Source: Myxacorys californica WJT36-NPBG1 (lineage in GTDB: Bacteria; Cyanobacteriota; Cyanobacteriia; Leptolyngbyales; Leptolyngbyaceae). From it: DNA of 46,344 nt. Made by a program: the position numbers and the translations under genes. The stretch lies in contig JAHHHO010000045.1 of NCBI GenBank assembly GCA_019359315.1, forward strand, positions 1 through 46,344, given 5' to 3'. Below are positions 352 to 46,149 of the stretch, piece after piece (the first letter of the stretch is position 1; each line of letters starts with the position of its first letter). A model generated the notes under the pieces. The model ran no database searches. It was not told the DNA's origin and was given only the letters and a program-made list of their open reading frames with translations.

Positions 352-696
352 CAGACATGGGTGGGCTGAAAGGGCAATTCGTCCTGTTCGCCATCCCTCA
401 TCGATTGCGTTGCAATCGCCTTCCCAGACATGGGTGGGCTGAAAGATGCCTTCACGAAGACATTTCTCTTTTAGCTCAGTGTTGCAATCGCCTTCCCAGA
501 CATGGGTGGGCTGAAAGACTCCATAGCGAAAGTCGTTTTTGTCGTTGCTGAGTTGCAATCGCCTTCCCAGACATGGGTGGGCTGAAAGTTTACTGCGCGA
601 TCGCGTTTCAACTATAAAACCTACGTTGCAATCGCCTTCCCAGACATGGGTGGGCTGAAAGATTTCAAGGCTGCGTTCATAATATCTATTCAGGAA
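352..696 (+). CRISPR. Truncated CRISPR array, 37-nt repeats, Cas12k (type V-K) style
   Basis: Four identical 37-nt repeats lie at 409-445, 481-517, 552-588 and 625-661. A fifth, 5'-truncated repeat (last 21 nt) lies at 352-372. Repeats begin GTTGCAATCG and end GGGTGGGCTGAAAG. The spacers are 36, 35, 34 and 36 nt (373-408, 446-480, 518-551, 589-624), with a last spacer from 662 to roughly 696. The GTT...GGGxTGAAAG form resembles the repeats of Cas12k-associated transposons, and a matching transposon end follows at 1010-1179. No cas gene and no obvious tracrRNA remain beside it, because the leader side is replaced by the IS1/CAST-end junction. I found no spacer match inside the window by eye. 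Confidence 0.9.
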
Positions 697-744: not shown

Positions 745-797
745 GTTGCTCCAGCTACTGTAAATGGGGAGGACTGAAAGGCGCATCTTAATGGCAT
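745..797 (+). ncRNA. Delocalised (homing) crRNA unit targeting tRNA-Ala
   Basis: A degenerate 36-nt repeat at 745-780 keeps the GTTGC start and the GACTGAAAG end but differs in the middle. It is followed at 781-797 by GCGCATCTTAATGGCAT. This matches 16 of 17 bases of the tRNA-Ala(GGC) gene (D-stem through anticodon; minus strand from 45952 leftward), with one mismatch at position 9. The four bases before the protospacer in the intact tRNA are GGTA, which fits the NGTN-type PAM of Cas12k. Type V-K CASTs are known to carry a separate atypical repeat with a short spacer near the right end that directs insertion beside tRNA genes. This unit has that form and position. Its transcription is inferred. 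Confidence 0.8.
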
Positions 798-1009
798 GAT
801 GCAATGAAACTAGCGTTGCCATTGAAGTGCAAAAAAGATAGAGAAAGAGATTAGCCATACTCTTATTTGTTGATCAAGCTTCTACTCAAGCAACGTTTGT
901 TGAGCTGGAATAATGCACAATTAGCACGGAACTGATTTACGGTTCAGCAGACCACCTACACCGACACCAATCTGCAAGTTTTCAAACAACCTAGCAGAAA
1001 TTGTTCGAA

Positions 1010-1179
1010 GCGACATTAATGTGCGAACCGTGAGATTAACGACAAATGCGACATTAATGTGTGAATAGCAAGAATCTATTGATTAACGACATTAATGTGC
1101 GAAACTACAGCCGAAACGCCAAAAATCGTCGAAAACGACATTAATTTGCGAATCGCGACATTTAATGTGCGAATGTACA
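1010..1179 (+). mobile_element. CAST right-end-like terminus with five putative TnsB sites
   Basis: Near-identical copies of (G/A)CGACATTAATGTGCGAA lie at 1010-1027, 1048-1065, 1086-1103, 1135-1152 and 1155-1179. The first three are spaced exactly 38 bp apart. The last two sit nearly head to tail, and the outermost ends in TGTACA (1174-1179). Repeated TnsB sites of this kind with a TGTACA terminus are the known form of type V-K transposon ends, and a doublet at the tip is typical of the array-side (right) end. Directly outside it begins the tRNA-Ala 3' sequence. The first five outside bases, TATGG (1180-1184), would be one copy of a target duplication. The opposite transposon end is not in the window. 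Confidence 0.8.
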
Positions 1180-1233
1180 TATGGAGCTAAGCGGATTCGA
1201 ACCGCTGACCCTCTCAATGCCATTGAGATGCGC
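1180..1233 (-). other. attL: 3' fragment of tRNA-Ala(GGC)
   Basis: These 54 bp are identical to 45899-45952 and represent tRNA-Ala from the D-stem to the 3' end. The 5' 21 nt of the tRNA (acceptor and D-arm start) are missing, so this copy cannot be a functional tRNA. Phage DNA begins at 1234. The following CTCTCAATCATGCC (1234-1247) resembles the sequence flanking the intact tRNA (45980-45993), which suggests that the phage attP includes captured host flank. Confidence 0.9.
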
Positions 1234-1297: not shown

Positions 1298-1317
1298 TTG
1301 CATAGAGTTGCATAAAG
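1298..1317 (+). other. Probable integrase arm-type site (left)
   Basis: TTGCATAGAGTTGCATAAAG is a tandem of two TTGCATA units. It closely matches 45760-45779 just inside the other prophage end, so in the circular phage the pair would flank attP on both sides. It overlaps the alternative TTG start (1308) of the integrase and could also let the integrase control its own gene. Confidence 0.55.
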
Positions 1318-1319
1318 AA

Positions 1320-2390
1320 ATGAAGCCTTTAATCGTCAGAAAGAATTCTAATAGTTGCATTATCAGGTGGAACTATGATAATGATTCTTATTCTCTTACA
1401 TGGGGTAAATACTCTGACCCTTCTGATAGAGCTAAGCTTGAATTAGCAGGTAAGTTAATCTACCAGGATTGCTTAACTAACAACTTTGATACTTCTCTCA
1501 ATAAATATAAATGCTGGCTATTAGGGATTGTTCCAGACGTTAATAGTTACTCTAAAGTTAAGTGCCCCTCACTAATCACACTTTTAGAAGAACGTCTAGA
1601 GAATCTATACAGTAGTGCTGATCAATCAGTTCTGAATTTATTAAAGCAGTATAAAATCTCTGTTGATAATCCCTGTAAAGCTAAAGACTTTCTAAAGTGG
1701 ATTCAGAATAGAGGAGTAGCTACATCCACTCAGAAACGCTATCTAGCCGTTCTACAAGTAGTTAGAAAAGATTTATTCGGTCATCTGAAGGTTAAATTAG
1801 AAGGTAAACCTAGACCTAGACCCCTTACTATTGAACAAGTACATAGATTTATAGCTGAATTAGAACGATCTCCTAACTACTGCCATTATGTAGACTTCTT
1901 TCTGTTTTTATTTAATTCTGGACTCAGGATTAATGAAGCTATAGGTCTTAGATGGCAAGACGTTGATTTAGATAATAGAGAGATTCAAGTTTATCAATCT
2001 CTAATAAGAAATAGAGGTAAAATCTCAACTCGAATTAGAAAAACCACTAAAACTTCAAAGCATAGAGTAGTTCCCATCAATAATAAAGTATGTGACATTC
2101 TTACTAATAGAAAGTCTAAGGATTCAAAAGGCTCAGACCTAATATTCTTATCTCATAAAGGTAAACCAATTGATGACCATACTCTAAGTCAAAGATGCTG
2201 GAGAATAACTTTAGAGAAGTCAGATATTCCACATCGACCTATGAGAGTAACTAGAAGTACTTTTGTTAGTCATTGTGCTGCTTCTGGAATGGAGCCTGCT
2301 AATATTGCTCAGATTACAGGTCACGATGTAAAGATTCTATATGAGAATTATTTAGGGGCAATCAATAAACCCATTCTACCTGAACTATAA
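1320..2390 (+). CDS. int: Tyrosine-type site-specific integrase
   Basis: Phage integrase of the tyrosine recombinase family that would integrate and excise the prophage at tRNA-Ala. The C-terminal catalytic domain shows NSGLRINEAIGLRWQDVD with the first catalytic Arg, a Lys region TKTSKHRVVPI, then RVTRSTFVSHC (box II), QITGHD and the nucleophile region LYENYLG. About 356 aa, a usual length for the family. Box II reads R-x-x-R where most relatives have H-x-x-R, so the His is substituted. I chose ATG 1320 because the alternative TTG at 1308 lies inside a TTGCATA arm-type repeat; neither start has a strong ribosome binding site. The gene lies beside attL and reads inward, the normal arrangement. 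Confidence 0.95.
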   Translation: MKPLIVRKNSNSCIIRWNYDNDSYSLTWGKYSDPSDRAKLELAGKLIYQDCLTNNFDTSLNKYKCWLLGIVPDVNSYSKVKCPSLITLLEERLENLYSSADQSVLNLLKQYKISVDNPCKAKDFLKWIQNRGVATSTQKRYLAVLQVVRKDLFGHLKVKLEGKPRPRPLTIEQVHRFIAELERSPNYCHYVDFFLFLFNSGLRINEAIGLRWQDVDLDNREIQVYQSLIRNRGKISTRIRKTTKTSKHRVVPINNKVCDILTNRKSKDSKGSDLIFLSHKGKPIDDHTLSQRCWRITLEKSDIPHRPMRVTRSTFVSHCAASGMEPANIAQITGHDVKILYENYLGAINKPILPEL

Positions 2391-45779: not shown

Positions 45780-45898
45780 TATAGAGACTTTCCTAAATAG
45801 AGTATTCCTTTTTTTAGCGCTAAATGCGGCATGACTGAGAGGTGTAAGGGGCTATAGCGCAGTTGTTAGAGCCCCCTGATATAGCAATGTTTTCAACC

Positions 45899-45952
45899 TA
45901 TGGAGCTAAGCGGATTCGAACCGCTGACCCTCTCAATGCCATTGAGATGCGC
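45899..45952 (-). other. attR: 3' portion of the restored tRNA-Ala
   Basis: Identical to attL over 54 bp. The phage-supplied 3' part joins the host 5' part (45953-45973) to restore a full tRNA, as is usual for tRNA-targeting integrases. Confidence 0.9.
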
Positions 45953-45973
45953 TACCAACTGCGCTATAGCCCC
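45901..45973 (-). tRNA. tRNA-Ala (anticodon GGC)
   Basis: 73 nt, minus strand. Acceptor GGGGCTA pairs with TAGCTCC, including the G3:U70 pair that marks alanine tRNAs. The D-arm is GCGC...GCGC, the anticodon loop is ATGGCAT (GGC at positions 34-36), the T-loop is TTCGAAT, and the discriminator is A. CCA is not encoded. The gene is restored by the prophage and is also the target of the nearby CAST homing spacer. Confidence 0.95.
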
Positions 45974-46149
45974 TTACACCTTTCAATCATGCCGCATTTA
46001 GCGCTAAAGCGCAACTCAAGAACTGTGCCGATTTAAGAAAAACCCCACAAACCCATAAATGAGATCTGAGCTTATGTCAATTTATGCGAGAGCGCGGCTT
46101 TGTTGCATGATTGAGAATTGAGACAAATCCATCCTAAACTCGGTTGAGA

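Follow-up and report, generated by a model that had tools for sequence, protein, structure and literature searches.

The question raised by this locus is why a short repeat-spacer unit, standing apart from a CRISPR array, should carry a guide against a tRNA gene that is bordered by a transposon end on one side and a prophage on the other. The window, by which we mean the entire stretch of DNA analyzed, is the whole of contig C23 (46,344 bases) from a Myxacorys californica genome of 5.97 Mb in 128 contigs. Near the left end of the transposon, the unit at 745-797 comprises a single degenerate repeat (R*; 745-780, plus strand; 3' end GGAGGACTGAAAG) and a 17-nt spacer (781-797, plus strand). It is separate from the CRISPR array proper (352-661, plus strand), which contains four full 37-nt repeats (GTTGCAATCGCCTTCCCAGACATGGGTGGGCTGAAAG), with its first repeat reduced to the last 21 nt (352-372). 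The delocalised crRNA of V-K CASTs was reportedly described by Saito et al. in 2021. The initial annotation had read 745-797 as such a homing crRNA for tRNA-Ala, and the combination of R* with a 17-nt spacer, a GTN PAM, a tRNA pointing toward the left end and a 54-nt offset supports that reading; its coordinates proved exact. Based on sequence comparisons, we propose as a very probable explanation that 745-797 encodes the anchor crRNA of a type V-K CAST homing to tRNA-Ala(GGC), and that a prophage entered the same gene later.

The spacer differs from tRNA-Ala(GGC) at one position, matching it at 1217-1233 and at 45936-45952, both on the minus strand; the mismatch sets a T of the spacer against a C of tRNA-Ala and would make an rU:dG wobble. 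These two gene copies are the only sites in the genome within one mismatch of the spacer, apart from the spacer itself, which bears out the one-mismatch match to tRNA-Ala first noted for this unit. Relaxing the search recovered one site with two mismatches (on C41) and 13 sites with three; since the spacer pattern read backwards, which served as a control, gave 10 genomic sites at up to three mismatches, only matches with zero or one mismatch stand out. At up to one mismatch, chance alone would give about 0.036 matches in the genome and about 0.0003 in the 46,344-nt contig. We therefore attach next to no probability to the reading that the tRNA match is a coincidence, or that the spacer is a functionless copy of tRNA sequence: the absence of a PAM at the copy adjacent to the transposon is the one observation in its favor, but the position of the unit, the PAM of the intact gene and the distance to the transposon end all fit as well, and the same design recurs in 16 of 20 related regions, as detailed below.

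In the intact tRNA-Ala(GGC) gene (45901-45973, minus strand), the protospacer at 45936-45952 is preceded on its 5' side by GGTA at 45953-45956 (minus strand), which fits a GTN PAM and agrees with the PAM initially assigned to this gene. The copy adjoining the transposon has AGAG where a PAM would be expected, and no GTN. The transposon end next to this second copy (1002-1179, minus strand) was recognized from repeated sites like CGACATTAATGTGCGAA, which we take to be of the TnsB-site type, from a terminal TGTACA at 1179, and from its similarity to an end of a complete CAST on contig C19. It shares 77% identity over 132 nt with the CRISPR-side end of the C19 CAST, whereas only its last 28 nt are in register with the tnsB-side end; one out-of-register 52-nt match also links its repeat units with the latter. 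As the long match is to the CRISPR-side end and there is little to the tnsB-side end, we identify the terminus at 1179 as the left end, with which the insertion has, judging from these alignments, the canonical orientation, tRNA-Ala pointing at the left end. A backwards insertion, in which the CRISPR-side end would be the right end, was considered and is ruled out by PMC9938897 together with the related cas12k regions. The flank of the element next to 1179 reads TATGG; target-site duplications are unusable as a test here because the elements on C19 (flanks ATAAC and TGAGG) and in the relative G034 (AAATG and CCTTG) also have non-matching flanks.

The PAM is missing from the adjacent target because a prophage split the tRNA-Ala gene. 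The limits of this prophage (1234-45898) are deduced from a 54-nt att core that is identical at 1180-1233 and 45899-45952, with the identity stopping one base beyond on both sides. It codes for an integrase, terminase, portal, major head, tail sheath, tail and baseplate proteins, and seven of the eight prophage proteins scanned matched a PHROG of named function. The integrase (1308-2390, plus strand) is of the tyrosine type (phrog_1, 1.4e-39; PF00589, 7.3e-25), and the best nine phage matches of the terminase are to phages of cyanobacteria (31-36% identity). Tyrosine integrases insert prophages into tRNA genes such that the 3' part is duplicated and the gene remains intact at one edge. The locus on C23 conforms to this pattern in having a duplicated 3' part of tRNA-Ala and one intact gene at the other prophage edge, but differs in that its att core is exactly the stretch between the CAST PAM and the left end. 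The 3' part at 1180-1233 (minus strand) is thus the att copy that would represent the leftover half of the original target, retaining the protospacer (1217-1233) without its PAM.

When the flanks are joined across the att core, an intact tRNA-Ala is recovered by ARAGORN, and in this rebuilt site without the prophage the edge of GGTA lies 54 nt from the terminal base 1179. The transposon end had originally been placed 54 bp from the PAM side of the target; that distance holds for the rebuilt site, but in the contig as it stands the split by the prophage leaves the intact, PAM-bearing copy about 44.8 kb from the left end. We infer from this that an initial CAST insertion followed by the prophage is the simplest history of the tRNA-Ala locus. 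The reverse order, with the CAST inserting beside an already split copy, has in its favor that the protospacer is still complete at that copy. Against this, the split copy offers AGAG rather than a GTN PAM, removal of the prophage restores an intact gene beside the left end, and no transposon end lies at the expected distance from the intact GGTA copy or elsewhere near it, all five termini found being in other places. Hence, we consider a prophage-first order very unlikely and retain the order in which the CAST came first.

The prophage edges have further peculiarities of their own. A 60-nt inverted copy (93%) of 45949-46008, covering the 5' half of tRNA-Ala and sequence upstream of it, is found at 45813-45872, inside the prophage edge and 76 nt from the original. 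At the split copy, the 14 nt preceding the protospacer (GGCATGATTGAGAG) resemble both R* (767-797 compared with 1217-1247) and the sequence upstream of the tRNA (GGCATGATTGAAAG), so that the edge of the split copy looks like the tRNA region minus about 27 nt.

We then compared the unit with those of related elements. Cas12k was searched for in 42 genomes of the order, the present one and 41 relatives, and was matched in 21. The comparison drew on 20 of the resulting cas12k regions, each of 2.6-7.2 kb and together representing 16 relatives from the same family; hits lying at contig edges (for example, G004:C58 and G037:C47) were omitted, as was the majority of the weak or partial hits. In 16 of the 20, a 17-nt stretch following a repeat end of GAAAG matches a GTN-flanked target located farther out on the opposite strand, with no mismatch in ten, one in five and two in one of these anchors; no such unit was seen in the remaining four (L102, L108, L112 and L113). 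ARAGORN calls a tRNA at the target of 13 of the 16, and the tRNAs used include tRNA-Thr, -Ala(CGC), -Gly, -Asp, -Pro and -Val. Three regions (L103, L105 and L106) have a similar anchor spacer (GACTGCCTGACTC) with a GGTA-flanked target at which ARAGORN makes no tRNA call. The adjoining target carries the PAM in all 16 matched relatives, unlike the adjacent copy on C23. Where a GTACA end could be picked automatically (12 of the 16), the PAM lies 60, 65, 65, 65, 62, 57, 61, 56, 50, 62, 64 and 41 nt from it; the last value (L114) falls outside the published range and may reflect a wrongly picked terminus.

PMC9938897 describes V-K anchor spacers as accompanying a truncated repeat, R*, and gives a PAM-to-left-end distance of 46-82 nt, outside which a single case, at 147 nt, falls. 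The unit on C23 resembles the anchors of that account in its lone degenerate repeat, 17-nt spacer, GTN PAM, tRNA pointing toward the left end and distance, and differs in targeting tRNA-Ala(GGC), in its single mismatch and in having a target now split by a prophage (PMC9938897). In light of the spacer match, the GTN PAM, the 54 nt and the presence of the same kind of unit in the regions of the relatives, which upholds the comparison with other V-K CASTs that had been suggested for it, 745-797 is on sequence grounds a further instance of the known V-K anchor or delocalised crRNA and not a new kind of element. Its repeat and spacer, PAM, tRNA target and offset are the normal anatomy of V-K elements. 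The expectation that the spacer match itself would be conserved in related elements was not borne out: the 16 matched anchors all have targets other than tRNA-Ala(GGC), and a degenerate-pattern scan of genome_contigs for the R* end plus spacer gave four matches, none titled as a cyanobacterium, which we take to be chance, in a collection from which records very near this genome are possibly absent. A scan of the same collection with the Cas12k protein found no relatives. We do not count the missing conservation as a refutation because V-K elements use many different tRNAs as targets (PMC11406308).

The element on C23 itself looks decayed, judging from its gene content. No match to cas12k or tnsB was obtained on the contig, and an Rfam search of it returned only tRNAs, with no tracrRNA recognized. 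The contig breaks off inside the transposon, and its outermost bases resemble sequences elsewhere in the genome, with 1-127 similar to a stretch of C66 (83%) and about 128-327 recurring on many contigs; both are taken as probable insertion sequences, and frame 1 of about 128-326 is presumably the start of an IS1-type InsA. The array region (352-720) has no match among plasmids. A further 22 nt at 330-351, ending in TGTACA, are identical to the transposon terminus, and the stretch at 328-351, which sits between an insertion-sequence-like fragment and the CRISPR repeat truncated at 352, has the appearance of another transposon end fused to the first repeat of the array.

The complete CAST on C19 has genes that score as V-K TnsB, TnsC, TniQ and Cas12k with the PADLOC models. 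Besides the similarity of its CRISPR-side end, it shares with the C23 element the 3' end of R*, its own lone repeat also ending in GGAGGACTGAAAG, and termini of the form TGTAC(A/G); it differs in possessing tnsB, tnsC, tniQ and cas12k, a tRNA-Val(TAC)-type spacer and other array repeats. The lone spacer of the C19 CAST (L017, C19:20177-23013), GAGCGCCTGCCTTACAA, is the same as that used against tRNA-Val(TAC) by two relatives, yet the sequence outside the left end of this CAST yielded no tRNA call. Downstream of its cas12k, where by position a tracrRNA would lie, there is an exact 8-nt complement of GGAGGACT from R*. Duplex folding against this stretch gave -21.2 for the present R* and -20.2 for the array repeat of C23, with no clear preference; among the related loci the complementarity of R* to the tracrRNA is uneven, being longer than that of the array repeat in some and shorter in others, L095 and L096 among them. 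Due to this unevenness and the lack of a clear preference in the energies, we do not use the complementarity as proof. It is possible, as far as these likenesses go, that the C19 machinery serves the C23 guide in trans.

These observations bear on whether the unit is a dead relic, which homed the element once and is now neither made nor used, the cas12k, tracrRNA and transposase genes having been lost. We regard this as evenly balanced. The apparent insertion sequences at the left of the contig are in keeping with decay, as is the distribution of TnsB, of which the only close relative in the genome is on C19, the others (on C11 and C125) showing 38% and 27% identity; a right-end-type terminus on C51 likewise has a radical SAM gene and no tnsB in the 1.8 kb from it to the end of that contig. 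However, the guide is nearly intact, and the complete C19 CAST, with its complement to R* and similar termini, might act on it in trans.

The terminus on C51 (L006, C51:24568) is 79% identical to the tnsB-side end of the C19 CAST over 173 nt. It is found 60 nt beyond the GGTA of a tRNA-Thr(CGT), a side on which one would expect a left end, with GTACT as its flank, and may represent the second end of the C23 element, a reversed insertion or a rearrangement. The first gene inside it (L006 11020-12111, minus strand) codes for a radical SAM protein (PF04055) that weakly resembles prokaryotic viperin models (2.5e-11 over about 90 residues). In a survey of the right ends of related elements, tnsB was present in four of seven. 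We also considered whether a single element could bridge convergent tRNA-Thr(CGT) and tRNA-Ala neighbors. Across 30 loci from the 38 genomes searched, with up to 1.5 kb taken per side and less at contig ends, tRNA-Thr was found at 29 (a count that includes the present genome, L087 being without any tRNA call) and tRNA-Ala at none, and this arrangement was rejected. In the same-genus genome G027, the sequence downstream of both tRNAs matches C116 and, weakly, C103; no tRNA was detected in C116:48500-54500. Partial Cas12k relatives other than that on C19 occur on C85 and C11: the former (L059, C85:1-1600) has the 3' portion of a different cas12k and, after it, an array of a third type, and the latter contig (L060, C11:1-640) opens with the N-terminal portion of a Cas12k relative. 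By their sequences, these pieces belong to at least one further decayed V-K element.

Taken with the anchor reading preferred above, the course of events may be pictured as follows. The unit would be transcribed and the anchor crRNA would pair with tracrRNA and Cas12k, after which its 17-nt guide would bind the stretch of tRNA-Ala(GGC) from the D-arm to the anticodon beside GGTA, and the bound complex would recruit TniQ, TnsC and TnsB. The element would enter with its left end leading, at a distance of 54 nt from the PAM and 2 bp beyond the 3' end of the tRNA, thereby landing beside an intact tRNA-Ala gene. The prophage would integrate into the same gene afterwards, carrying off its 5' half and the PAM, with the prophage's own copy of the 3' part completing the gene 44.8 kb away. 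The steps of transcription, tracrRNA pairing, Cas12k binding and recruitment of TniQ, TnsC and TnsB follow V-K CAST biology as presented in PMC11406308 and PMC11656645, and that this guide made the insertion on C23 is likewise proposed by analogy.

What appears unusual here, from the arrangement of the locus, is the later insertion of a prophage into the same tRNA gene, parting the transposon from its target; among the matches listed in the Cas12k and prophage literature, titles and opening lines of abstracts mention no phage splitting a CAST homing target. The PAM-bearing target moved by the phage might constitute a vacant homing site, although we deem it unlikely that a second insertion, at the prophage edge and by the C19 machinery in trans, would follow. 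tRNA-Ala(GGC) is an addition to the anchor sites found in this comparison, and the locus presents one tRNA gene used by both an RNA-guided transposon and an integrase-driven prophage. It thereby offers a natural setting in which to ask whether a CAST can insert anew after a phage has moved its target away, and whether another CAST in the same cell can serve an orphan guide.
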